From: Gammaproteobacteria bacterium
GTDB lineage: Bacteria > Pseudomonadota > Gammaproteobacteria > Pseudomonadales > Halieaceae
Direction of reading: 5' to 3'
Assembly: GCA_024742415.1 (NCBI GenBank)
Contig: JANSYN010000003.1
Span: 186,001-250,000, forward strand
DNA length: 64,000 nt
Position numbers and translations under genes: made by a program. Positions 2,508-12,629 of this stretch are shown here, piece after piece (the stretch's first letter is position 1; every line of letters starts with the position of its first letter). Below the pieces are notes generated by a model that saw only the letters and a program-made list of their open reading frames with translations, was not told the DNA's origin and did not search any database.

Positions 2508-3728
2508 TTACTCGCCCTCTGCCGCCAAGGCCTGCCTGCGTAACTCATGCATGAACGCCGATTCGCCTGGCACAGAGACACCTTCGAGAAACGACGACAA
2601 AAACTCCTCCATGGGCGGCTGCGCATATTCGGCAGGTACAACGTTCATCAGACGCACCACTTTATCTTCTAGGATGAACACAGCGGTACGGCCAATCATG
2701 GCTTCATCGCGGTCGTTTTGCAGTTCGACAGCCTGCGATAGTCCAGCATAGACACCGGCAGACGTTGCAATATGGGTCACCACCTCCTGACCAAACAGGA
2801 ACGACTTCCACAGGGACTGCTCGTAACCGAGCTGCACTTCGTTTCTCACGGCTAGAAGCTCACCCGCCAGATACTGCTGCACATCGGGCCACCGGGGCGA
2901 ACGTACCGGATAAACGCTAATCACGTATTCATCGAACTGGAAATCCGGCCGGATATAGCTGAGCCAGGCGCCTTCCAATGGTCCCGCCTGCTGCACGGGC
3001 CGCACCCTTTGATAAACACCGATGCGTTCGGGAGTGACAAGTTGCTGCGCATAATTTGTGGATTGCAGGGCAGCGGCCAGATACGGCCCGGTAAACACCC
3101 CCGACGCCCTGGCATCTTCGATGATGCGCGCCGACAACTTACCAGCGAGCTCGATGTGCACCTGATCCGGGTTGCTCAACAGTGACAAGGAGGCATCAAA
3201 GGGAAATTCATAAGTGAGCTGATTGATCGGAATATCGCGCCACAAAATCATCACTTCTACCACGACCTCACCGGAGAGAGTCAGGGGCAGCATCATCAGT
3301 GTGGCGCCAGCTAATGCCGCTTTGGCCAGATCGTCCACTGAGCCCGGGCTGAACCTTGTTTTGGTGATCGCTATCGCGTAGTCAAGACTTTCATCGGCAG
3401 AGCGCACCTCGGCAAAGAATCCGCTGTCTTGCAGCTGGGCCAGCTCATGATCGAGTGTGCGGATGCGCAGGCCACATTCGTTCAGGGCCGATGCTTTTTC
3501 GAACGCCTCGCAGCGCTCAATCAGCGCCCCTGAGGGCGCCTTGGGAAACAGTGATACCGCTGGCCAGAGAACATCGAACTCGGTGTTCTTTGCAGGCATC
3601 ACCTGGGGGGCTTGTGGCGTCGCGCAACCCGCCAGGGCAAGGGCGATACAACACAGCCGCAGAGCATGCGCCGCGCTTGGGCAGCGGGTTGCTACAACAG
3701 CGGTAACTAGCGCGAGCAGCCTGCGCAT
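2508..3728 (-). CDS. Large lipoprotein of unknown function
   Basis: 406 residues. A hydrophobic N-terminus ends in a lipobox (ALALAGC, Cys around residue 35), so the mature protein should be lipid-anchored. I do not recognise the family. The body is mixed alpha/beta with no obvious catalytic motif; it has a DEAMIGRTAVFILEDKVVRLMNV segment and a charged, probably helical C-terminus. The ATG lies only 35 bases from the attL copy of the tRNA-Cys repeat, so the mobile element now supplies whatever sequence lies upstream. Before integration this gene would have sat about 35 bases behind the CCA end of tRNA-Cys. Confidence 0.6.
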   Translation of the reverse strand: MRRLLALVTAVVATRCPSAAHALRLCCIALALAGCATPQAPQVMPAKNTEFDVLWPAVSLFPKAPSGALIERCEAFEKASALNECGLRIRTLDHELAQLQDSGFFAEVRSADESLDYAIAITKTRFSPGSVDDLAKAALAGATLMMLPLTLSGEVVVEVMILWRDIPINQLTYEFPFDASLSLLSNPDQVHIELAGKLSARIIEDARASGVFTGPYLAAALQSTNYAQQLVTPERIGVYQRVRPVQQAGPLEGAWLSYIRPDFQFDEYVISVYPVRSPRWPDVQQYLAGELLAVRNEVQLGYEQSLWKSFLFGQEVVTHIATSAGVYAGLSQAVELQNDRDEAMIGRTAVFILEDKVVRLMNVVPAEYAQPPMEEFLSSFLEGVSVPGESAFMHELRRQALAAEGE

Positions 3729-3763: not shown

Positions 3764-3808
3764 TGGAGGCTCGGGTCGGAATCGAACCGGCGTACACGGA
3801 GTTGCAGT
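3764..3808. repeat. attL: 45-bp duplicate of the tRNA-Cys 3' end
   Basis: All 45 bases match 12556-12600. It covers the tRNA from the anticodon loop through the T-arm and acceptor strand to CCA. The 5' half of the tRNA is absent here, so it is not a working tRNA gene. This is the standard footprint left by a tyrosine integrase that uses a tRNA 3' end and restores the gene on the other side. Confidence 0.93.
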
Positions 3809-3820
3809 TTTCCTGAAAAT
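3808..3820. repeat. 13-bp inverted repeat touching attL (left copy)
   Basis: TTTTCCTGAAAAT, whose exact reverse complement is at 12540-12552, three bases inside attR. In the excised circle the two copies would flank the 45-bp core symmetrically. A role in integrase or excisionase binding is inferred. Confidence 0.6.
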
Positions 3821-3903
3821 GGCCCTGGGGGCTGAAACCCGCACTAATACTATACACCCGCTATCTAGAGTTTCCACTATTTTACAGTAAACTGCGTCCG
3901 CGC

Positions 3904-3921
3904 TGCGCACATATTGCGCAC
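3904..3921. repeat. Putative integrase arm-type site, left
   Basis: TGCGCACATATTGCGCAC: two direct copies of TGCGCAC. The same 18-mer with one mismatch, in the same orientation, is at 12481-12498 near the other end. Paired heptamer-like repeats inside both ends of a tyrosine-integrase element are typical of arm-type binding sites. Confidence 0.6.
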
Positions 3922-3973
3922 GGGTGTACGCGGATATTGGGTCCGTGCTAGATAAATTTGGCGAGATAGACAA

Positions 3974-5254
3974 ATGGGATTACTTACCGACGAATTCGAG
4001 AACCATCAGATTCACGCAGCTTTGGACGAGCTCGCAGCTACCATTGAGAGGCTCGACCGCAAGGAACACGAAGAGGACGAACTCTCATCGATTAGCTTTT
4101 CGGAGCAGGGCGTAAAGTATATTCAGTCTCGTTTGTCTATCTCTATACCGACGTTGACTACCGGCGGGACGCTAACTCCTATTCACGAGCATGTGGAACA
4201 ATGTTCATCTCACCTCAATGACTATCTAGCCAACAGGAACCTCGCTTCAATACATCAAGCAAAGCATTCGATGGAAAAAGCGGTTTTACAATCGTCATCG
4301 CTTGCTATCTTAGGAAATGTAGCCCCAGGATTCTCTGCCGAAGACGCGTTAGCGTTTTCAAAGACTGCCGAGGAGCTTATTAGGGGCCTTCAATCGAAGT
4401 TTGAGGAAGCCGAACACGGACTAAATGAACTTGGTAAACAGATCGCCGAAAGCCAATCCCTAGCTGCAGAGAACCTTTCACTCAATAAAGCTAACAGCGC
4501 AGAACTTAGAAATCTGGAAGTTACTCTCAAATCCAGCCATGACGCTAATCTCACCCAGCTAAACGCCGACAATTCTGCGAAGCTACAGGCGTTCCAAGAG
4601 AAACTGCATGAAGCAAGCTTGCAGAGAGACCAATATCTGCAAAAAGAGGGAGCAGAGCAAAAAAAGGCGGTTACTGACCTCATATCAAAAATTTCTGAAA
4701 AGAGCGACTTGTACTTTGAAGAGCTAGAGGCTTTCAAGAAAAGAGCCGAGTTCATCGTCGGCACCGTTGAAAACACAGGACTGACCGGCAACTTTCAGCG
4801 AACCTCCAAAAAGGACCGCGAAGCCGCTAACTGGCTGAGGGCTGGAGCTCTTGTCACCTACTTTGTCATGGTTTTCGTTGTTCTATCAAGCGTCCGTGAC
4901 TTCTGGCCAAGGGCAGCCGAAGATATCTCAGCGACGCCCTTTGACCCCTGGATGACTGGTTTCAAACTGATAGCCGCCTTTATCTTGTTGATACCTGCGA
5001 AATACCTTAGCGCAGAGGCCTCCAGGCACAGTATGCTCTCCGAGAGAAACCGCCGAATTGAGCTTGAACTGGCCACCATTGATGCCTATTTCATGGGTTT
5101 ACCAGATGATGAGCGCGCACAAAAGAAAGCAGCTTTTGCAGACAAGTATTTCGGACAGATTGATGAAGTCAGCACGGATCGCGATGACAGTACACACTAC
5201 AGTGACATGAAAGATATCGTAAGAGACTTGCTCAAGAAAGTCGGGCCCAAGTAA
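3974..5254 (+). CDS. Coiled-coil protein with two membrane segments, candidate cargo/defence gene
   Basis: 426 residues, the only gene of the element on the plus strand, next to attL. Residues 1-120 are soluble and acidic. Residues about 120-260 are a long, Ala/Glu/Lys/Gln-rich predicted coiled coil. Two hydrophobic segments follow (about 288-308 and 328-346), then a charged helix with RNRRIELELATIDAYFMGLPDDE and a short acidic tail. Codon use is visibly lower in GC than the surrounding host genes, which suggests transfer. I cannot name the family with confidence; the C-terminal part resembles DUF6161-like membrane coiled-coil proteins, but that is a weak impression. Its position at the att end, outside the phage operons and in opposite orientation, is where satellites carry accessory genes such as anti-phage functions. 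No enzymatic motif is visible. Confidence 0.8.
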   Translation: MGLLTDEFENHQIHAALDELAATIERLDRKEHEEDELSSISFSEQGVKYIQSRLSISIPTLTTGGTLTPIHEHVEQCSSHLNDYLANRNLASIHQAKHSMEKAVLQSSSLAILGNVAPGFSAEDALAFSKTAEELIRGLQSKFEEAEHGLNELGKQIAESQSLAAENLSLNKANSAELRNLEVTLKSSHDANLTQLNADNSAKLQAFQEKLHEASLQRDQYLQKEGAEQKKAVTDLISKISEKSDLYFEELEAFKKRAEFIVGTVENTGLTGNFQRTSKKDREAANWLRAGALVTYFVMVFVVLSSVRDFWPRAAEDISATPFDPWMTGFKLIAAFILLIPAKYLSAEASRHSMLSERNRRIELELATIDAYFMGLPDDERAQKKAAFADKYFGQIDEVSTDRDDSTHYSDMKDIVRDLLKKVGPK

Positions 5255-5485
5255 GTTACCCGATATTTTCGCACGCACTAGGAAAACAGCTAAAAACTCG
5301 AACCTACCTCTCAAAGGTCTGTACAGTCATTCGGTGAAAGTGCGCCCGTGGCGCCCCAGAAGAGGTTTGAGGCGTGGGCAGGCGCGGGCATGAGGCTATC
5401 GGTCCTCATGCGCCCTGAGGGTGGCATTGCAGGCAACATAGAACCTGCAGGGCATGGCCATCCACTTTACGCACATGCCGTGCGT

Positions 5486-7369
5486 TTAATCGGCTTCATG
5501 AAGTTCTGAGAAGCTTTTGCCATGACGCACAGCGATGTCACAATCTGCAAACACTGTGATGATGACATCGCCATAGCTCGCCCGTGTGTAAGGATCTACA
5601 ACAAAGTCGAGGCCAGACCACATGCCGATGACCAGGTCCGACCAGTTACCAAAGAGCACGTGGCCTGCAGGTATAAGGTTCGAAGTGAGAGCGCGGTAAC
5701 CGTTCATCCTGCCCTCACCTTGGTCAGTGGCCGTCCATATCATCTGCCCGGTTGTAGCTACTACCTCGGTCTGTTTCAGGAGGGCAGCAATGGAGCCGGT
5801 GGTGACGTATCCCAGGTTACCCATGTCCGCATCATCGACCATGAGCTCCTTCTCAAGGTCCACAATGTTCGGGAATGACGGACTACCCCCGTTAGCATAG
5901 GTAAGAGAGCCCACCCCCGTTTGGCCCAGAATCCCAAGCGGTTGATTGCTTGATCCAGTGCCGTTGATCGCGGCGGTATCGATTGCCTTCGCTACCGCAA
6001 AAGCGAGGGAATCCCTGACCAGCGTTTCGGAGGCAGGGTCGCCCTGCAGCAGCATTTTGCGGCTAATGGTACTGGAAACACCCACAGAGGTCGGGCGCAT
6101 AACGATCTTGTCATAGCTCGGGTCGCTCGGTGAAACCTGGTCAGACCCGTCGCCCGCTAACCAGGTTGCTGTGGAGTCCCCCGTCTGGCGCGGTATCTGG
6201 ATGTCCGAGGTGAGGCCAGGCAATATGGTTGCGCCCATGCGACCCGTGATGAGGCGAGCGCGTAGTGCTGGAATAAACTGTGAGGACATGTGGGCAGTGC
6301 CGATCAGGTTGCCCCCATCGCCGCCCTTGCTCACTGAGCGAAACAGCACTTCCTCCGGCAAGGTATGGCGGTCGCCCTGGCCTTTCCCTAGCCGTGTGGC
6401 CGCTTGTCGCATGATGTCCAATTCAGGGCCGCCAGTGCGAATGGTGTTAGGTTCGAATGTCAGCGCCAAGGCGCGACAGATTGAAAATTCTTCCATGGCG
6501 TGGTTACCTCCGCCGTTTCCTGCAGTGTTTACGTAAGCTGATATAGTGCGGGTTTCGGCGCTTTCGTCCTGGTTGCACCAGATATCAACGGACAGGTCGC
6601 TAATGCGTTGCTCACAGGCATTCGCGTCCGAGACTGATTTAGCCGTCATGATTCGTCGCTGTATGTCATGGAGGCGTTCTTGCGCGCCCTCATGCCCTAG
6701 GACTTCAGGCACCAGCCCAAGCATGTTTTTGTAGCGCCGATGAAGTTCGGCCTGCAGCTGTAGAATCCGCACTTTCTCGGGCAGATCGCGAAGCGCTCCA
6801 GTCTCGAAAGCTCGGTTTACACCAGCAGACAAGTCAGCAGGGCAAGCCACACACGACGCTTCAAACGGCGTCCAGCGCGTGGCGACCACTTCCAAAGAGC
6901 GGGTGTCCGAATCTTCTTTTTCAGTGTATTCGTCAATGTGGTAGCCGATGGAGATGCCGCGCACGATGCCAGCCTTGACGTCCTGCCAGATCTCTTCCGC
7001 CCGGGGGGACTCAGAGAAACGCAAGCGAGCTCGCAGCCTGCCCTGGTAAATTCGGACGTTTTCAGCCAGACCGATTTGCTGCTCCTGATTGTGTGACCAC
7101 AACAACGGCAGTGAGCTATCAATAGCGCGCTCTAGATTGACTGCATTTTCATCATGCTGGAGTATTTCTCGATATCCTTGGCGCACGACAGGAGCCTCTG
7201 TGGAAAGCGTGGCCTCTATCGTCCGCTGGTCTTTTTGCGCTCGACTGTGATCCAGCTCCATGAACCGATAACAGACCTTTCCTTGAGCTTGAGACGGCGG
7301 GACAGGCGCGTACGGGGCATAGAGGTTCGGAAAGTCACGAAACCAGGCATCAAAATTCATTTGTGTCAT
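5486..7369 (-). CDS. Fused HK97-type prohead protease and major capsid protein
   Basis: 627 residues. Residues about 35-190 form an HK97-family (S78/U35-like) prohead protease: LLWSHNQEQQIG carries the catalytic His (about 93) and VRGISIGYHI the catalytic Ser (about 140), followed by the typical RWTPFEASCVACPADL strand. A linker with heptad-like helices (about 195-275) fits the delta/scaffold region. Residues about 280-625 match an HK97-fold major capsid protein, with GGNLIGT, LPGLTSDIQIPRQTG, WLAGDGSDQVSPSDPSYDKIVMRPTS-type strands (E-loop and P-domain) and AIDTAAINGTGSSNQPLGIL. Fusion in one chain is known in some phages and satellites: the protease matures the head and removes the linker. 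No portal or large terminase accompanies it. A separate promoter (7550-7578) precedes it. Confidence 0.92.
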   Translation of the reverse strand: MTQMNFDAWFRDFPNLYAPYAPVPPSQAQGKVCYRFMELDHSRAQKDQRTIEATLSTEAPVVRQGYREILQHDENAVNLERAIDSSLPLLWSHNQEQQIGLAENVRIYQGRLRARLRFSESPRAEEIWQDVKAGIVRGISIGYHIDEYTEKEDSDTRSLEVVATRWTPFEASCVACPADLSAGVNRAFETGALRDLPEKVRILQLQAELHRRYKNMLGLVPEVLGHEGAQERLHDIQRRIMTAKSVSDANACEQRISDLSVDIWCNQDESAETRTISAYVNTAGNGGGNHAMEEFSICRALALTFEPNTIRTGGPELDIMRQAATRLGKGQGDRHTLPEEVLFRSVSKGGDGGNLIGTAHMSSQFIPALRARLITGRMGATILPGLTSDIQIPRQTGDSTATWLAGDGSDQVSPSDPSYDKIVMRPTSVGVSSTISRKMLLQGDPASETLVRDSLAFAVAKAIDTAAINGTGSSNQPLGILGQTGVGSLTYANGGSPSFPNIVDLEKELMVDDADMGNLGYVTTGSIAALLKQTEVVATTGQMIWTATDQGEGRMNGYRALTSNLIPAGHVLFGNWSDLVIGMWSGLDFVVDPYTRASYGDVIITVFADCDIAVRHGKSFSELHEAD

Positions 7370-7549
7370 TCAAAGTGCCTCTGAGAAAGGGACCGGCGCA
7401 ATACGCAAACGAAAAACGCCGAATCCGCTGATTAACAACGTATCCATGCGTCCGTCACATGCTGCGCCAGCCAAGGCACTTCTGAGCGAGGTATCAGCCC
7501 GCTCGTGGCTGTGGTGTGGACATCGCGGGAGCCACCCGCGCAAGTACAT

Positions 7550-7578
7550 ACTGTACATACAGTCAGTAGTCTGGTCAA
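7550..7578 (-). promoter_or_regulatory. Promoter with overlapping dyad for the protease-capsid gene
   Basis: Read on the minus strand there is a -35 TTGACC (7578-7573), a 17-base spacer and a -10 TACAGT (7555-7550). The -10 lies inside ACTGTA-N2-TACAGT (7550-7563), a 14-bp near-perfect dyad, so a repressor or activator could act directly on it. The leader before the ATG at 7369 is about 175 nt. From 7370 to 7601 I see no convincing gene. Confidence 0.5.
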
Positions 7579-7601
7579 CGTCGGCAAGGGTCTAATTCGC
7601 A

Positions 7602-8123
7602 CTATTCAATCCCTTCTTCTCGCAAATAATTCGTGAGTTGTGCTTCAATCCAGTCGGCGTCGGCCAGATGATCAAGGCTGTTCGCGCCCATGGCTATGAT
7701 CTCTTGCAGTACAAGTATCTGTTTAGGAGATAGATTGAGTCGCCGGCAGGCCTCGCCTGGAATCCTGTCATGCATTGCGCGGATCTCGCTGGCAGTCTGT
7801 GCCAGAACATAGCTTTGAAAATTTACGGGGGCGATCTCGTGCTTTAGCATTTTGTTTTTCATTTCGAGCGCGTCGGCTTGCTGGTTGGTGAGCCTAATCC
7901 GCGCCAGCTGAAGTGCGATCTTTCGCTCTTCATCTGAAGAGTCCAAATCTTCTGCAGATAGTTGGCGTTCTTCTCGGTTGAGAATGACCGCGGCAACGGT
8001 ATAAAAATTCTCCCTACCAATTTTGGCGATAGGCTCCACTCCCCAGGCTGAAAAGGCCTGAGTCGATATGCCCAGGCTTGCTGCCATGTTGGTTTGGTTT
8101 AACCAGTGCTTTTCCTTCTTCAT
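7602..8123 (-). CDS. Terminase small subunit-like protein (Nu1/TerS-type)
   Basis: About 173 residues from the ATG at 8123. The N-terminus (WLNQTNMAASLGISTQAFSAWGVEPIAKIGRENFYT) is a winged-helix DNA-binding domain like that of lambda Nu1 and related small terminases, followed by a long helical region (ERKIALQLARIRLTNQQADALEMKNKMLKHEIAP) typical of TerS oligomerisation and terminase-binding segments. A small terminase recognises the packaging site on the DNA. Without its own large subunit the element would have to use a helper phage's TerL, as satellites do. ATG 8141 is an alternative start. Confidence 0.75.
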   Translation of the reverse strand: MKKEKHWLNQTNMAASLGISTQAFSAWGVEPIAKIGRENFYTVAAVILNREERQLSAEDLDSSDEERKIALQLARIRLTNQQADALEMKNKMLKHEIAPVNFQSYVLAQTASEIRAMHDRIPGEACRRLNLSPKQILVLQEIIAMGANSLDHLADADWIEAQLTNYLREEGIE

Positions 8124-8264
8124 GTTCACACTCACATACAAACAACAAGGGGCAAATCTAGCGCCCTGATAATTACTGAGACTCTGCGGAGCCCGCCACC
8201 CGTACGCTAAGGCCTAAATCGGAGTACCTTTGCAGGGGGTGCGGGGTGGCAGGGCTCGCAACGT

Positions 8265-8693
8265 TCACCATGGATAACGCCAATCAAGTACATGGAACTG
8301 AAACGCCTGGTCGAACTCGAGGTCCGGAGCTCGCTTCCCAGCTTGCTTGTTTAGATACACGTGCGCTCGGTGCTGGTTCCGCGCCTCAATCACCCCCGCT
8401 TCGTCATCGAACTGATACGGCTCAGGCAGCGCTGGACTAGTCGAGAAGTCACGCGCTATGACGCCTTGCAGTGTCTCCAGCGCGGTTGATCCTGCCGATG
8501 GACACCAGGTAATACTTTCGAGCGCTGGTGGGGTGTGGCTGGGAAAGACGTCTTCTACTGACTCAGACAGCACAACCTTCTCACCCTCAACAGCAATGAC
8601 TTCACGCCGAATCAAGGTTATCCATTGCACGCCAATGTGGTCTGGCGGCGCGATCGCTTGCCTGTAGACATAATCTCCGATCGTAACTGGCAT
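8265..8693 (-). CDS. Hypothetical element protein (about 142 aa)
   Basis: Starts at ATG 8693, preceded by GGGAGAT at good spacing; ATG 8708, directly after the stop of the upstream gene, is the alternative. The N-terminal part (MPVTIGDYVYRQAIAPPDHIGVQWITLIRREVIAVEGEKVVLSE) looks like a small beta-barrel, and the C-terminus is acidic and aromatic. I do not recognise it. It sits in the same minus-strand run as TerS, so a packaging, head or regulatory role is possible but unproven. Confidence 0.6.
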   Translation of the reverse strand: MPVTIGDYVYRQAIAPPDHIGVQWITLIRREVIAVEGEKVVLSESVEDVFPSHTPPALESITWCPSAGSTALETLQGVIARDFSTSPALPEPYQFDDEAGVIEARNQHRAHVYLNKQAGKRAPDLEFDQAFQFHVLDWRYPW

Positions 8694-8708
8694 AGCTTGA
8701 TCTCCCAT

Positions 8709-8921
8709 CTAATGTTTCGTAATCATTTTTTCGAGCTTGTCCTCTGCCAGGATCCAGTAAAGAGCCGCCTCTCGGGCTTGCTCGACAAGCTCGCGCAGCT
8801 CTTCGTCGCGTAAATGCTCAAAGCTGAAGTACTCCAGAAAGTCCATCTCTGGTTTCTTTTGCAATAGCATCCAACATGCTTCCATTGTGAAAGGTGGCTT
8901 TGACTCGATGGTATCGCTCAT
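8709..8921 (-). CDS. Small acidic element protein (about 70 aa)
   Basis: Start ATG 8921 with AGGACG upstream. The sequence is helical and acidic (MDFLEYFSFEHLRDEELRELVEQAREAALYWILAEDKLEKM) with no family I can name. It is the first gene after the candidate origin/operator region and overlaps or nearly touches the next gene, so it opens the structural-side operon. Small acidic phage proteins of this sort often bind host or helper proteins, but nothing here shows that. Confidence 0.6.
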   Translation of the reverse strand: MSDTIESKPPFTMEACWMLLQKKPEMDFLEYFSFEHLRDEELRELVEQAREAALYWILAEDKLEKMITKH

Positions 8922-8951
8922 AGCTTTACGTCCTGTAGTTAGTAAACACTC

Positions 8952-9134
8952 TGTGGATAAACCCAGCTCCAAAAAGCTGGATAGGTGGCTTAGTAGGTGT
9001 GGTGTATATCCGACACCTGTGGCTCTCGAAAAACGGCTCTACAGGTGTCATATGTGATACCTGTGGCCCTGACATGGCACGCCAATGGTGTACATCTGAT
9101 ACCTGTGGCGCTCTAGAGGTGGCATATATACACC
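8952..9134. promoter_or_regulatory. Candidate replication origin: DnaA box plus four iteron-like dyads
   Basis: A perfect DnaA box (TTATCCACA on the minus strand) lies at 8952-8960. Four related dyads follow: 9001-9017 (GGTGTATATCCGACACC), 9044-9061, 9087-9103 and 9118-9134 (inverted, 14 of 17 match to the first). The first three share GAYACCTGTGGC on their right side. Their centres are about 43, 43 and 31 bp apart, close to 4, 4 and 3 helical turns, so bound proteins would lie on one face. The second is the centre of a longer 24-bp palindrome (9041-9064). The region adjoins the winged-helix-like gene at 9145. It could equally be an operator array for the operon starting at 8921. Confidence 0.55.
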
Positions 9135-9144
9135 GGTCAATCTG

Positions 9145-9522
9145 TTAATCACGGCATGTCCTTTCCCAATCATTAGTCGGTTCTCTCGACTGATATGGCA
9201 GCCATGTAAGGCGCCATGTTCTCGATTTGGATTGCGTGCGCGAGCAAAAAAGGCTCTCGTCTACCAACCTGATAAATCCACCCTCTTGCAGCTCTCTGAA
9301 TGCGCGCATGGCAACCTTCCTGCAGCAGGGTATCTTCTGCTCCGCCTCCCTCACGCCATACGCTACAGGCTCCAGGTTGCGCCAGTGAACGTGCATCAGC
9401 TGCATGAGCACCTTTGCATGTGGTGAAAGCTCTAAGTAGGCGGAAGACTCCAGTAGCCCACGGCGCACAGAGACAACACCGCCCCGCTTGTCGAACGGCA
9501 GGGCACCCTTGCTTTTGCCCAC
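9145..9522 (-). CDS. Winged-helix-like protein, possible replication initiator
   Basis: 125 residues from a GTG at 9522 that overlaps the stop of the preceding gene (TAGTG). The segment RGLLESSAYLELSPHAKVLMQLMHVHW, followed by KVAMRAFRELQEGGFIRLVDESLF and TWRLTWLPY, has the layout of the winged-helix domain found at the N-terminus of phage and plasmid replication proteins. Its gene ends 11 bases from the iteron-like dyads, which fits a cis-acting initiator. No primase or helicase motif is present and the protein is short, so it could instead be a transcriptional regulator of the operon beyond the repeats. Confidence 0.65.
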   Translation of the reverse strand: MGKSKGALPFDKRGGVVSVRRGLLESSAYLELSPHAKVLMQLMHVHWRNLEPVAYGVREAEQKIPCCRKVAMRAFRELQEGGFIRLVDESLFCSRTQSKSRTWRLTWLPYQSREPTNDWERTCRD

Positions 9523-9821
9523 TAGCGCAGCCTTTCAATTCGCCAAACATGGCTTTGACTCACTTCACCAAAACGATTTCGTTGTAGCGGCTTCGGCAGC
9601 TCTGCAATTACAGTAAGACCTTGCTTCTCCAGCGCAGGCTTGATGTAAGCCACAGCCGCTGAGAGATTCTGCGTAGCCGTTTGCTGACAAAGGTCACCCG
9701 TTAGCGTAGGCCCGTAGATATACAGATGATCTACGATTCTCTTGGCTTGTTTGCTTTTCGTTTCAGACTTGGCAGATTCAATTCGCTGCCACGTCAAAAT
9801 ATCCTGTGATAGACTTTGCAT
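9522..9821 (-). CDS. Small putative DNA-binding protein (99 aa)
   Basis: The N-terminus is charged (SAKSETKSKQAKRIVDHLYIYGP) and the middle part reads like a winged helix (TLTGDLCQQTATQNLSAAVAYIKPALEKQGLTVIAELPKP). The C-terminus (SQSHVWRIERL) is a typical wing strand. It overlaps the next gene by one base and is therefore probably translationally coupled to it. Phage regulatory or replication accessory protein is the best guess. Confidence 0.6.
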   Translation of the reverse strand: MQSLSQDILTWQRIESAKSETKSKQAKRIVDHLYIYGPTLTGDLCQQTATQNLSAAVAYIKPALEKQGLTVIAELPKPLQRNRFGEVSQSHVWRIERLR

Positions 9822-9864
9822 CGTTGTTTCCCCCCAGAAACAGCTTCACTGGACGGCCCCCGCC

Positions 9865-10122
9865 TCAAGCTGGGGCTGTCTTCTCAACGTGCTCACGCAC
9901 TAGCGATTCTTGGTTCTCGAGATACTCGATCAGACTGGGTATGTGGACATACCAACGATTGAAGCGCTTACGGAAGACCTTTTGTACCATCCGCGGCTCA
10001 GCTGCCAGGCGATCAATGATGTTTCGTGACTTGCGCGTGCTTAGAATTTCGGGGTGGTCATCTCCAAAGTCGGTTATCAAAACTACGCCTTCGGGATACT
10101 GCTCTAACAGGTAATGCTGCAT
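9865..10122 (-). CDS. Small putative DNA-binding/excisionase-like protein (85 aa)
   Basis: Start ATG 10122 with a good SD (ACGGAGAG). The segment IIDRLAAEPRMVQKVFRKRFNRWYVHIPSLIEYLENQE is basic and ends in the W-hydrophobic-x-IP-x-L-x-x-YL pattern common to AlpA/Xis-type small winged helices. It opens the second minus-strand group of the element, behind a region with two dyads (10130-10226). An excisionase or activator role is inference. Confidence 0.6.
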   Translation of the reverse strand: MQHYLLEQYPEGVVLITDFGDDHPEILSTRKSRNIIDRLAAEPRMVQKVFRKRFNRWYVHIPSLIEYLENQESLVREHVEKTAPA

Positions 10123-10129
10123 GTTTACT

Positions 10130-10226
10130 CTCCGTAACTCTCATAACCTTTCGATTACAGAGTTTACGGAGGCGTAGACTTTCGTGTGCCAATCTAGACT
10201 TGTTATTCTTATGCCGGAATTGGCAC
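10130..10226. promoter_or_regulatory. Two dyads upstream of the 9865-10122 gene
   Basis: First dyad: CTCCGTAACTC (10130-10140) and GAGTTTACGGAG (10160-10171), 11 of 12 with one base inserted. Second: GTGCCAAT (10186-10193) and ATTGGCAC (10219-10226), perfect 8-bp arms. They lie in the 109-base gap between the integrase group and the next gene group, where a promoter for the latter is expected; no good -35/-10 pair was identified. Confidence 0.4.
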
Positions 10227-10231
10227 GTGTG

Positions 10232-10774
10232 TTAGTTCGCGGCTCGGGCCTCTTTTAGAAGATAAGAAAACTTGCTTTTTTCCGGCTCAGAAATATCTGC
10301 CGCGCGCATGATGCCTCGCGCGACATCACGCGCTCTTCGATCTGAAGGATCATCAAAATAGCTGACTGCCAGGCGACAAGCCGACAATTGATACCAGCGT
10401 TCACTGTGTTTCTCGCGGAACTCTGATCGCATGCGCTCGATATCGGTCTGCGCACTCGCACAGCGCACCAGGGCCTCACGTATCGCATCACGGGCTAGAG
10501 CTACTTCTTTCGACACGTTTAAACCAGCAATGTGCCCCCTGCCCTGTGCCTCTCTATTCAGAAGGTGGCGGACTTCCCTAGCGGCACCCAGCAAATGTCC
10601 CTGCAGCCGCTCAAGGCGCAAGAGTGCGGATTCTGCCTCCTCATGAGAGTACGGCGCCAATGCACGCGGCGGCGCAGATGCAATGAAAGGCTCCACCAAG
10701 GATCTGCGCCTTGCTACCAAATACTCAGAACATTCTTTAATCCAAGTTTCTAGCTCTGTATCTCTATTCGCCAT
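10232..10774 (-). CDS. Hypothetical helical element protein (about 180 aa)
   Basis: Starts at ATG 10774, overlapping the integrase 3' end by 11 bases, with GGGGC upstream; the extension to 10834 would lie within the integrase. The protein is almost entirely helical and Arg/Glu-rich (EEAESALLRLERLQGHLLGAAREVRHLLNRE, VALARDAIREALVRCASAQTDIERMRSEFREKHSERW). I do not recognise a family. Co-transcription with the integrase is likely. Confidence 0.6.
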   Translation of the reverse strand: MANRDTELETWIKECSEYLVARRRSLVEPFIASAPPRALAPYSHEEAESALLRLERLQGHLLGAAREVRHLLNREAQGRGHIAGLNVSKEVALARDAIREALVRCASAQTDIERMRSEFREKHSERWYQLSACRLAVSYFDDPSDRRARDVARGIMRAADISEPEKSKFSYLLKEARAAN

Positions 10775-11819
10775 TCGTTTGCCCCGCCAATTCTGTAGAG
10801 GCAACGAAACTGGCGCTAACCTGGGCAGCAACATCTTTAGTCAAATGAGAGTATCGCTTAAGCATCTGACTGGACTTGTGACCTGTGACCAGTTGCACCA
10901 TGACAGGATTCATACCCGCCGTAAGGGCGGCCGTAGTGAAGGCATGCCGCAGGTCATGGAATCTAAAGTCTTCGATACCCGCGGCCTCCTTTGCCTCTTT
11001 CCAATGCGCCCGGTAATTGTAGGGAGCCTTGCCGGTGTAGCTGTTTCCAAAAACGTAGCCCTGCCATTTAAGTGCTTTTTCCTTGCGCCAAGTTTTCAAA
11101 AGCTCTAGAGCCTCACCCCCGACTACTACAGATCGCTTCTCATTGTTTTTCGATACTTTGATCTGGATATGACCAGTCTCTATGTCTAGATCTTGCCACT
11201 TGAGCCGCTGGACTTCGCTCGCGCGCATTCCTGTATATAGAGCTACCATAACGAAGGGGTAAAGGCTGGGCTCTGAGTGCTTCTTCAGCGCCTCATACAA
11301 TGCTTGTTGCTCCGCCCCGGACAAGAGCCGATCACGTTCATTGTGCTCCGGCAAAGCGCGCACATGGCAAGGATTGTCCCGCGCCCAATCCCACTCCTCG
11401 ATTGCGATCCGAAATACTTTACTCAACAGCGCAACGCGACGATTCACCGTAGAAGGCGCCAGTGGTTTACCTTTGTTGGGGCCTTTTTGGACGAGATTAG
11501 TAAGCAGTGCTTTCCGTGCTTCAATGACATGCGCCCTGCGGATTTGGGACAGCTTCCGCCGTCCCAACTCCTTATCCCAAAAGTTGAGCACTGTCACATG
11601 GTACGCCTTAGGTTTTTCCTCTTCCTTGTAGCGACCTATGGCATCGGAAACAGTCTTGTTGGTGAGATTGTGCAGATCCCCAGACTCAATGGCGACTTCC
11701 GTCTCCTTTGCCCATTTCTGGGCGGCTTTCTTCGTGATGAACACTTTTGACATGGGTTTGTGACCTTGCCGGCGAACCTCTGCCCTCCACTTGTCCCGGT
11801 ACTTTCTAATGCTCGCCAT
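10764..11819 (-). CDS. Tyrosine-family site-specific integrase
   Basis: About 351 residues from ATG 11819, preceded by GAGGTGG. An N-terminal arm-binding beta domain (ASIRKYRDKWRAEVRRQGHK...VFITKKAAQKWAKETE) is followed by a core-binding SAM-like domain and the catalytic domain. All catalytic residues are present: Arg in YTGMRASEVQRLKW, Lys in IKVSKNNEKRSV, HxxR in FHDLRHAFTT, His in VTGHKSSQM and the Tyr nucleophile in LKRYSHL. It catalyses insertion at the tRNA-Cys 3' end bounded by the 45-bp repeats. It overlaps both neighbours, so it is embedded in an operon with two small upstream genes. Confidence 0.95.
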   Translation of the reverse strand: MASIRKYRDKWRAEVRRQGHKPMSKVFITKKAAQKWAKETEVAIESGDLHNLTNKTVSDAIGRYKEEEKPKAYHVTVLNFWDKELGRRKLSQIRRAHVIEARKALLTNLVQKGPNKGKPLAPSTVNRRVALLSKVFRIAIEEWDWARDNPCHVRALPEHNERDRLLSGAEQQALYEALKKHSEPSLYPFVMVALYTGMRASEVQRLKWQDLDIETGHIQIKVSKNNEKRSVVVGGEALELLKTWRKEKALKWQGYVFGNSYTGKAPYNYRAHWKEAKEAAGIEDFRFHDLRHAFTTAALTAGMNPVMVQLVTGHKSSQMLKRYSHLTKDVAAQVSASFVASTELAGQTNGE

Positions 11820-12033
11820 GTCCACCTCGCTGCGAATCCGCACGCTGATTTACGACAAGGTGGCCTTCTCGATCGATTGAATTTGTCAAAGATAGAAGCT
11901 CTTTAGATAGCCGGGTTGCCGCGTTTAGAAGAATGGTCTGATCATCCTCTATAAATTCAGCAGCACGAAGGACTGCGTCCAACTCACGAGCCAAGAGAGA
12001 TAGATCACCTAGATTGGTGGTGACTTTATGCAT
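11806..12033 (-). CDS. Small element protein upstream of the integrase (75 aa)
   Basis: ATG 12033 lies inside the end of the upstream gene, and the stop is 14 bases inside the integrase gene. The sequence is helical (LGDLSLLARELDAVLRAAEFIEDDQTILLNAATRLSKELLSLTNSID) with a basic tail. No family is recognised. Position and coupling suggest a regulator or partner of integration. Confidence 0.55.
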   Translation of the reverse strand: MHKVTTNLGDLSLLARELDAVLRAAEFIEDDQTILLNAATRLSKELLSLTNSIDREGHLVVNQRADSQRGGHGEH

Positions 12034-12382
12034 GGTATGCCTCCCGATTTTTTGCGGAGAGTGGCGCCTGGGGGTCGGCGTTGAGTTCGTATGGCTTGCT
12101 CTGAATATCGCCCCAATCGAAGTCCTCGAGCGCAAGCTCATCCTTCAAACGCCCCGCGATTGTCATAATTTTTAAGTTTGCGGCCTCAACAGTGCTTAGA
12201 AGCCCAGCTGCACCTACAGGTGTGAGACGACCAATCTGTGAATCACTAGAGTTGATCTGCTCAGCTAGTATGTTGAGCATATCGAGTGAATACCATACGG
12301 CCTGGTGTATCTCAGCGAGGCATGCAAGGACTTCTAGCGACTGACTTTCGTCAGTGGGATAGTTTATATTTTCGGTAGTCAT
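12026..12382 (-). CDS. Small element protein, first gene of the integrase operon (118 aa)
   Basis: ATG 12382 is chosen because GAGGAG sits 9 bases upstream; it abuts the alternative ATG at 12391. The protein is helical and acidic (EVLACLAEIHQAVWYSLDMLNILAEQINSSD, GLLSTVEAANLKIMTIAGRLKDE). It overlaps the next gene by 8 bases. A phage-type regulatory protein is possible, but no DNA-binding motif is obvious. The dyad at 12419-12453 lies just upstream. Confidence 0.55.
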   Translation of the reverse strand: MTTENINYPTDESQSLEVLACLAEIHQAVWYSLDMLNILAEQINSSDSQIGRLTPVGAAGLLSTVEAANLKIMTIAGRLKDELALEDFDWGDIQSKPYELNADPQAPLSAKNREAYHA

Positions 12383-12418
12383 TGTCGTCATCTCCTCTAC
12401 AGTTGACGGTTGTGATCA

Positions 12419-12453
12419 GATTACAGCGCGGTGTTTCAGCACCCGCTGTAATC
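12419..12453. promoter_or_regulatory. Long dyad in front of the integrase operon
   Basis: The arms GATTACAGCG/CGCTGTAATC are continued by GGTG/CACC after one unpaired base, around the loop TTTCAG. There is no T tract on either strand, so it is more likely an operator than a terminator. It lies 37 bases upstream of the first gene's ATG. Confidence 0.5.
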
Positions 12454-12480
12454 GTCTACCTCATCTCAGTATAGAGTGAG

Positions 12481-12498
12481 TGCGCACAAATTGCGCAC
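12481..12498. repeat. Putative integrase arm-type site, right
   Basis: TGCGCACAAATTGCGCAC, 17 of 18 identical to 3904-3921 and in the same orientation. It lies 57 bases inside attR, whereas the left copy lies 95 bases inside attL. Confidence 0.6.
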
Positions 12499-12539
12499 AG
12501 AACGACTACCGCTACAGAGCAGATACGGTAAGTATCTGT

Positions 12540-12552
12540 ATTTTCAGGAAAA
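12540..12552. repeat. 13-bp inverted repeat next to attR (right copy)
   Basis: ATTTTCAGGAAAA, exact reverse complement of 3808-3820. Three T residues separate it from the attR core. Confidence 0.6.
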
Positions 12553-12555
12553 TTT

Positions 12556-12629
12556 TGGAGGCTCGGGTCGGAATCGAACCGGCGTACACGGAGTTGCAGT
12601 CCGCTGCATAACCACTCTGCCACCGAGCC
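12556..12629 (-). tRNA. tRNA-Cys(GCA); its 3' 45 nt are attR
   Basis: A 74-nt cloverleaf with encoded CCA. The anticodon loop reads ACTGCAACT (anticodon GCA, 12597-12595). The acceptor stem is GGCTCGG/CCGAGCC and the T-loop GGTTCGATTCC. The 3' 45 nt (12556-12600) are duplicated at 3764-3808, so this gene has been rebuilt by the integrating element and its 3' half is element-derived. It lies in the order pgsA, tRNA-Gly, tRNA-Cys, the same arrangement as E. coli pgsA-glyW-cysT. Confidence 0.96.

Follow-up and report, generated by a model that had tools for sequence, protein, structure and literature searches.

The window considered here, 64,000 nucleotides of contig JANSYN010000003.1 (positions 186,001 to 250,000) from a gammaproteobacterium of the Halieaceae, contains at positions 3764 to 12600 an integrated element. 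Very probably this is a small phage parasite whose general type is already known but whose shell gene is unusual and common to a set of similar elements. We put at about 60% the probability that this 8.8-kb element is a phage satellite resembling the phage-inducible chromosomal islands (PICIs) and that it uses the portal, large terminase subunit (TerL) and tail of a helper phage around a small shell, which would be made of its own capsid protein or of a mixture with that of the helper. Our reasons are the following. The attachment (att) repeats are perfect and lie at a single site, and this site is empty in the genome that we call G493. The same pair of small terminase subunit (TerS) and capsid occurs without TerL or portal in genome G380, and seven bounded elements carry a capsid in this way. 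The satellite capsids group against 32 phage capsids, and one pair of them is under purifying selection. Two genes, p99 and p125, are shared with other integrase-bearing elements, iterons lie at the same place in several of these, and the integrase reads inward. Finally, the gene order of full phages, TerS-TerL-gpW-portal-capsid, shows which part is missing.

The element is bounded by perfect 45-bp direct repeats at 3764-3808 and 12556-12600, spaced 8,792 bp apart, and its G+C content is 52%, with 55% and 58% in the flanks. Read inward from the tRNA end, the minus strand carries two small open reading frames (ORFs), the integrase, p200, p85, p99, p125, the iterons, p87, p147, TerS, a 62-aa ORF and the capsid fusion; a 426-aa gene lies on the opposite strand between the capsid and the distal repeat. 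The features are:

3764-3808, no strand: att repeat at the end away from the tRNA, 45 bp, with the same sequence as the second copy
3974-5254, plus strand: 426-aa protein, likely cargo, the sole long gene against the common direction
5486-7369, minus strand: intact 627-aa fusion of an S78 protease and an HK97-type major capsid protein (phrog_617, PF05065, PF04586)
7370-7558, minus strand: doubtful 62-aa ORF between TerS and capsid, from the ORF list, no Pfam match
7602-8141, minus strand: TerS of the Nu1/phrog_57 type, starting at TTG 8141 or ATG 8123
8265-8708, minus strand: 147-aa protein (p147) upstream of TerS, weakly similar to a gene of the G380 element (E=4e-4)
8709-8972, minus strand: 87-aa ORF (p87), from the ORF list, weak PHROG match (E=0.007)
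9013-9106, no strand: iteron cluster, probable replication origin, ACACCTGT/ATACCTGT and complements
9145-9522, minus strand: p125, a candidate initiator of replication with a sub-threshold winged-helix match in Pfam
9522-9821, minus strand: p99, backbone gene common to loci L147 and L257-L262
9865-10122, minus strand: 85-aa protein (p85), weak PHROG match (E=0.0099)
10232-10834, minus strand: 200-aa protein (p200) after the integrase, from the ORF list
10764-11843, minus strand: intact tyrosine integrase reading inward from the tRNA end (PF00589, E=1.6e-32)
11806-12141, minus strand: 111-aa ORF between tRNA and integrase, from the ORF list
12026-12391, minus strand: 121-aa ORF nearest the tRNA end, from the ORF list
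12556-12600, no strand: att repeat inside the 3' part of tRNA-Cys (repeat search and ARAGORN)
12556-12629, minus strand: tRNA-Cys (gca), the integration target, left intact (ARAGORN and Rfam)

An earlier sequence-only reading had named the att repeats, the intact integrase, TerS, the protease-capsid fusion and the 8.8-kb size, and all of these hold, with correct coordinates. The possible origin that it mentioned can now be placed just 3' of p125, at the iterons. It had also listed TerL, portal, connector, tail and lysis genes as lacking, and indeed no such family, and no HNH endonuclease, matched among the window proteins scanned with Pfam and PHROG; profiles that we built from lambda-type TerL and portal genes found neither in the element. 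TerS matches Phage_Nu1 (E=5.9e-9) and phrog_57 (E=3e-25). The 426-aa protein, with no match in the Pfam, PHROG or PADLOC scans, has two hydrophobic stretches by hydropathy (near residues 284-311 and 327-350) and an N-terminal part that is coiled-coil-like by eye. The 85-aa protein sits where a regulator or an excisionase could lie.

Phages with this capsid family show what the element lacks. Mica, VP882, S-LBS1 and RcCronus all run TerS, TerL, at least one small gene, portal, capsid and then tail, and the full phages and prophages with this capsid that keep the order TerS-TerL-gpW-portal-capsid have capsids about 22-37% identical to that of the window. The window keeps the first and the last head genes of this order and lacks the middle and everything after. 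A search of the taxonomic order gave ten capsid loci: seven (L140-L144, L146 and L148) have a portal and TerL by the author-built profiles, L145 resembles a capsid-forming PICI (cf-PICI) by eye, L147 is the G556 element described below and L149 is unassigned. With the author-built profile, a portal was found in 58 of 82 capsid loci on IMG/VR and genome contigs; 13 ended too near the gene, and none was found in 11. These 11 had first seemed satellite-like. Four of them (L022, L024, L054 and L064) were examined together with the related L028 and resemble phage contigs that carry a longer capsid gene and genes of the tail side. In the phylum, 13 of 20 loci have a portal by the author-built profile; the other seven are three cf-PICI-like loci, one with a portal-like gene by eye, one with the capsid split over two frames and two left unassigned (G1048, L242, and G1053, L241). 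The cf-PICI-like assignments (G820, L145; G484, L124; G953, L236; G1217, L240; G1115, L243) were made by eye from ORF lists and not by profile scan. In another locus, L156 (G206), a capsid-like match is broken by two TGA codons.

We searched 140 genomes of the host family with the capsid, and 10 of them had a match at E<=0.001; a profile of seven satellite capsids gave eight at E<=1e-15, among them two weak matches (G484 and G495) to another capsid type. The closest capsid relative is that of G380, with 49% identity over 5-626. The G380 element lies at a tRNA-Ala between 62-nt repeats (95% alike, spacing 9,874) and holds an integrase, TerS, a capsid fusion and, by eye, an IS3-like insertion; its TerS is 31% identical to that of the window over 130 residues, and the author-built profiles found no TerL or portal in it. 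Genome G471 holds three elements, namely C24 (45-nt repeats at 96%, tRNA-Gly, 7,479 bp), C30 (51-nt repeats, tRNA-Ala, 8,806 bp) and C10 (24-nt repeats at only 83%, 7,729 bp, no tRNA detected). Two more come from G111, which is listed as sharing only the class (47-nt repeats, tRNA-Arg, 8,953 bp), and from G556, in another family of the order (53-nt repeats, tRNA-Leu, 8,593 bp), the latter with a Terminase_4 TerS and an unfused capsid. With the window included, seven repeat-bounded elements of 7.5-9.9 kb have a capsid without TerL or portal by the author-built profiles. The same kind of set is present in G460 and G389, in neither of which a second repeat turned up (G389 is close to the start of its contig), and G454 is a 4.2-kb contig, too short to judge.

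We also scanned, protein by protein, 83 proteins of eight of these elements (the window, G380, the three of G471, G460, G389 and G556; G111 was left out). Among the families listed (25 of 40 from Pfam and 25 of 94 from PHROG), eight proteins matched capsid, eight integrase, seven S78 protease and two Nu1 TerS. A rescan of 50 of the 83 with every matching family listed (10 Pfam, 14 PHROG) gave one TerS and no large terminase, portal or tail family; the 33 proteins left out were capsids, integrases, TerS, a transposase, replication-like proteins and a few others.

In G380 (L111:13106-13876), the slot matching that of the window cargo gene carries an anti-phage gene, bSEFIR (PADLOC E=3.9e-76), and in G556 (L147:8076-8789) a protein that by eye corresponds to the one scanned protein with a Zeta-toxin match lies between the capsid and the att site at tRNA-Leu.

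The capsid gene is single-copy in the host genome, and its product matches phrog_617 (E=5e-111), PF05065 (E=1.6e-29) and PF04586 (E=2.3e-8) in one open frame. An AlphaFold2 model of the fusion, built from 26 sequences, has a mean predicted local distance difference test score (pLDDT) of 75 and a predicted template modelling score of 0.52; an earlier model was poor (pLDDT 53). The best solved structural matches are phage and gene-transfer-agent capsids of the HK97 fold (top match 8gta, E=1.1e-20), and the list also includes HK97, SaPI1, a cf-PICI capsid and encapsulins. The comparison supports an HK97 fold for the C-terminal part only. H93 and S140 are invariant in the seven-row alignment of satellite capsids, in agreement with the catalytic His and Ser of the S78 protease.

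A tree was made of 41 capsids, nine from loci in which no TerL or portal was seen (the G111 and G454 rows included) and 32 from phages and prophages, 18 of the latter chosen by hand among the 82 contigs; the rows L140 and L093 have one and the same sequence. In this unrooted tree, from which the G556 and cf-PICI capsids were left out, the nine satellite-locus capsids lie on one side of a branch and the 32 phage capsids on the other, with a support of 94/90, just below the star limit of the tool. When five long rows, three of them satellite, were dropped, the six remaining satellite rows lay on one side of a branch with a support of 95/97. The capsids of G471 C24 and C10 are 93.7% identical in amino acids, with 0.053 nonsynonymous (dN) and 0.772 synonymous (dS) substitutions per site and a dN/dS of 0.069, and apart from a 2-kb segment with the capsid gene in it the two elements share two short DNA matches only. 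This one pair is under purifying selection, and therefore at least these capsids kept working without TerL and portal. For two other satellite capsid pairs that were tried, dS was not estimable.

The replication end of the element displays a second pattern. Four words of the ACACCTGT type lie within 94 bp at 9013-9106, directly 3' of p125, and none of 2000 first-order resampled elements reached four such words in 150 bp, the word having been picked after the repeats had been seen. The same words lie just 3' of p125 in G391, G388 and G488 (loci L257, L258 and L261), whose p125 proteins are 61-63% identical to that of the window; in G422 and G507 there are, by eye, other repeated words at that place. 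The p125 of G380 is 57% identical to those of G422 and G507, and it makes no firm join with that of the window (BLAST E=0.3). No match to the window p125 was present at E<=0.01 among 50,697 phage records, and the G422 version has a weak match to one plasmid. The window p99 matches a gene of G556 (E=6e-11), and a two-row p99 profile has matches in seven of the 140 family genomes, that of the window included; the other six were fetched.

On this backbone, the late parts differ. The G391 element (9,144 bp, bounded by repeats at tRNA-Arg) has a capsid and a PF04860 portal at L257:5569-8156, where no large terminase was seen. The G422 element (9,854 bp, also bounded by tRNA repeats) has a Gp13-like (PF20036) capsid at L259:4307-5320, a third capsid type. 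In the satellite-like element of G507, an S78 prohead protease and a Terminase_4 TerS are present (L260:11555-12646), and no capsid was seen, the protease standing alone as assembly part. In G400, type I restriction-like genes follow the backbone by eye, and the end was not found. The backbone of p99, p125 and iterons recurs in other integrase-bearing elements with different assembly parts, which points to a PICI-like satellite.

The 45-bp site is identical in 10 of the 16 sister genomes with the pgsA locus, agrees at 43 of 45 positions in three and was not found in the fetched stretch of the remaining three. In G493, homologues of three host genes that flank the window element come after the tRNA, and the site is present in one copy. 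Because these homologues adjoin a tRNA with a single site copy, the tRNA-Cys site of G493 is empty. A 406-aa host-side gene that adjoins the distal att in the window (2508-3728) is absent at the G493 site; it is matched in two of 18 genomes of the genus, that of the window included.

Thirteen sister flanks, several of them short, were read at tRNA-Cys. In G495, a second, partial repeat lies at a distance of 1.7 kb (L189:339-2098), and the stretch between the two att-like copies, which encloses a gene that is PIN-type toxin-like by eye, looks like a small island or a remnant. G483, a sister species, has beside the same tRNA-Cys a related integrase and a Terminase_6C gene, with a UvrD-type helicase on the other strand (L187:375-10318); no second att copy was found for this element. 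Gram-negative PICIs are expected at att sites that the prophages of the species do not use, and the G483 element bears on that point.

If the element is a PICI-like satellite, its cycle can be sketched. A helper phage would induce it and the integrase would excise it, after which p125 would start replication at the iterons. The satellite TerS would hand the satellite DNA to the lambda-type TerL of the helper, and the protease-capsid protein would build a small shell (perhaps T=3) on the portal of the helper, either by itself or together with helper capsid; the helper would also supply tail and lysis. The guess of T=3 is made because 8.8 kb amounts to 0.20-0.25 of the genome length of four phages with this capsid family (34.6-43.7 kb), which is close to the volume ratio (3/7)^1.5 = 0.28.

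Several results weigh against this scheme. Neither an AlpA/MerR-type regulator nor a canonical primase family, both named essential in Gram-negative PICIs, was matched in the window by Pfam or PHROG; an HTH_17 match lies below the cut-off in G380, and one AlpA match was found among the 83 proteins. The 85-aa, 111-aa and 121-aa ORFs of the window element leave room for such a regulator. No cos site was identified in the DNA ahead of TerS in the window and in G380, which was viewed and not aligned. The host genome has no match to the PF05136 portal or the PF05876 terminase, other portal and terminase families not having been searched there, so that no resident helper of the expected packaging type was found; some genomes are reported to contain helper-dependent elements of this kind with no possible helper (PMC11389934). 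Virome scans with p99 and the capsids of the window, G380 and G471 C10 gave phages or nothing close, and no virome contig had a close relative of the capsid (best 37%). A recognisable TerS is present in three of the eight elements scanned and absent from five. Moreover, shell-only sets and fuller ones are not cleanly separated, because the G111 element, which belongs to the capsid group, carries in addition a tape-measure-like gene (27% to that of a phage) and a Minor_tail_Z gene, and because G391, a backbone relative, carries a portal. Lastly, the PICI capsid gene is reported to be unnecessary for transfer in E. coli (PMC10111431), so that a shell-building role is not given.

As to elements of the G111 sort, there are two small integrase-bearing examples that add a tape-measure-like gene to the capsid, L119:8281-12146 (G111) and, by eye, L125 (G363).

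The dispensability of PICI capsid genes leads to an alternative that we regard as possible but rather doubtful, namely that the satellite is the same and its capsid is not the shell of its own particle. The protein would interfere or co-assemble with the helper head, as the capsid homologue Ccm of SaPIbov5 reportedly does in forcing small heads, or would be a spare copy, and TerS alone would give transfer in helper shells, perhaps as concatemers. What is reported on SaPIbov5 Ccm, PmCI172 and EcCICFT073 (PMC6092414) fits this, as does the packaging of an E. coli PICI as phage-length concatemers (PMC10111431), and the backbone relative L260 has a protease and TerS with no capsid seen. However, the intact fused protease, the separate group of satellite capsids and the pair under purifying selection look like the marks of a working shell protein. 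The same points disfavor a spare copy and have no bearing on a Ccm-like role.

That the element is a deletion remnant of a prophage, which would have lost TerL, gpW, portal, tail and lysis genes, is improbable. Two packaging genes do stand in phage order with the middle missing, and similar full prophages exist in the order. However, the att repeats are perfect, the frames are intact with no broken gene seen, and the integrase reads inward, which is a Gram-negative PICI criterion in PMC10111431; the satellite capsid grouping and the shared backbone also speak against a remnant. The sequence-only reading had preferred a satellite to a decayed prophage and had proposed to look for the same gene set at other tRNA sites. 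This preference is upheld: TerS and capsid without TerL and portal were found in G380 at a tRNA-Ala, in the nearest capsid relative, which is again bounded by att repeats, and at 49% capsid and 31% TerS identity. A full-length homologous prophage at the same place, which would have pointed to a deletion, was also looked for, and none with this capsid lies beside tRNA-Cys in the 13 sister flanks. We have therefore rejected a decayed prophage as the main explanation. It is more improbable still that the shell is domesticated and kept for the host as an encapsulin-like compartment or a gene-transfer-agent-like particle, for although the structural matches include encapsulin and gene-transfer-agent capsids, a phage capsid ranks first among them, the element has retained the protease domain and TerS, and the integrase, the att sites and the patchy distribution (the eight of 140 family genomes) speak for a mobile element.

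Returning to the PICI-like satellite, two features seem to be new, the clade of protease-capsid fusions and the swapping of late modules on a single backbone. Tentatively, and as a possibility that we think less likely than not, one may picture an old satellite lineage that has its own protease-fused capsid apart from phage capsids, spreads through a gammaproteobacterial family and makes its own small T=3-like shells on borrowed portals, while its backbone takes up single assembly parts in turn. These parts are TerS plus capsid, capsid plus portal, another capsid type, and protease plus TerS. If this is true, such satellites differ in the head-assembly step at which they break into the helper. 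One backbone with different parts is a natural series for asking which step each part captures. Many Gram-negative PICIs are reported with a capsid gene that is yet dispensable for transfer, which raises the question of its use; here, the satellite capsids form a group and one pair is under purifying selection, and therefore the gene does something.

Among known satellites, those of the P4 type are marked by Psu, Sid, delta and alpha-primase genes. None of these appeared in the Pfam and PHROG scans of the window, although the P4 genes were not searched one by one. The marine virion-encapsidated integrative mobile elements (VEIMEs) and tycheposons may include close matches of the present set. 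Both are named in PMC10803314, in which the phage-inducible chromosomal minimalist islands are described as having no capsid remodelling genes; the window element carries a capsid and is not one of them. The cf-PICIs carry capsid, protease, portal, connectors, TerS, TerL and HNH (PMC10690885). The window element is like them in having its own capsid and maturation protease and differs in that no portal, connectors, TerL or HNH were found, for which reason a cf-PICI identity was rejected. Of the phages, VP882 (Hapunavirus), Mica (Micavirus), RcCronus (Cronusvirus) and S-LBS1 share TerS and the protease-capsid family in the same relative order and differ in having TerL, at least one small gene, portal and tail as well, with a capsid identity of 31-34%.

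The sequence-only reading had called a set of shell plus TerS unusual, and this is not supported. The PISP satellite-plasmid TG93 of Vibrio crassostreae has a capsid (E), a head maturation protease and TerS, and TerL and portal are not named in the available part of PMC13230959; it differs from the window in being a plasmid without integrase, with a capsid of another family (PF03864). Capsid homologues are also present in SaPIbov5 and PmCI172 (PMC6092414). The Ccm of SaPIbov5, which is reported to act in making small heads, resembles the presumed shell protein of the window in being a satellite-coded capsid homologue, and the window differs in the protease fused to the capsid, the Nu1-type TerS and the Gram-negative host.

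The closest likeness is to the Gram-negative PICIs such as EcCICFT073 and PmCI172, of which 21 of 29 reference members carry a major capsid gene (PMC10111431). These are marked by an inward integrase, nearly unidirectional genes in the order integration, replication and late, iterons on the 3' side of the replication gene, cargo genes, a small size and, in some members, TerS (PMC6092414, PMC10111431). Induction by a helper and interference with it are further marks of the group. The window differs in that AlpA and primase were not recognised, in its HK97-type protease-capsid fusion, in a p125 without a match in the phage records and in a host that belongs to the order of Marinomonas and is not an enterobacterium. 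We call it PICI-like rather than a PICI because AlpA and primase were not recognised. Otherwise, it appears to have most of what defines the group: an integrase with a specific att site, genes that all lie on the minus strand except the 426-aa gene, an inward integrase, and a size of 8,792 bp without TerL, portal, tail or lysis genes.

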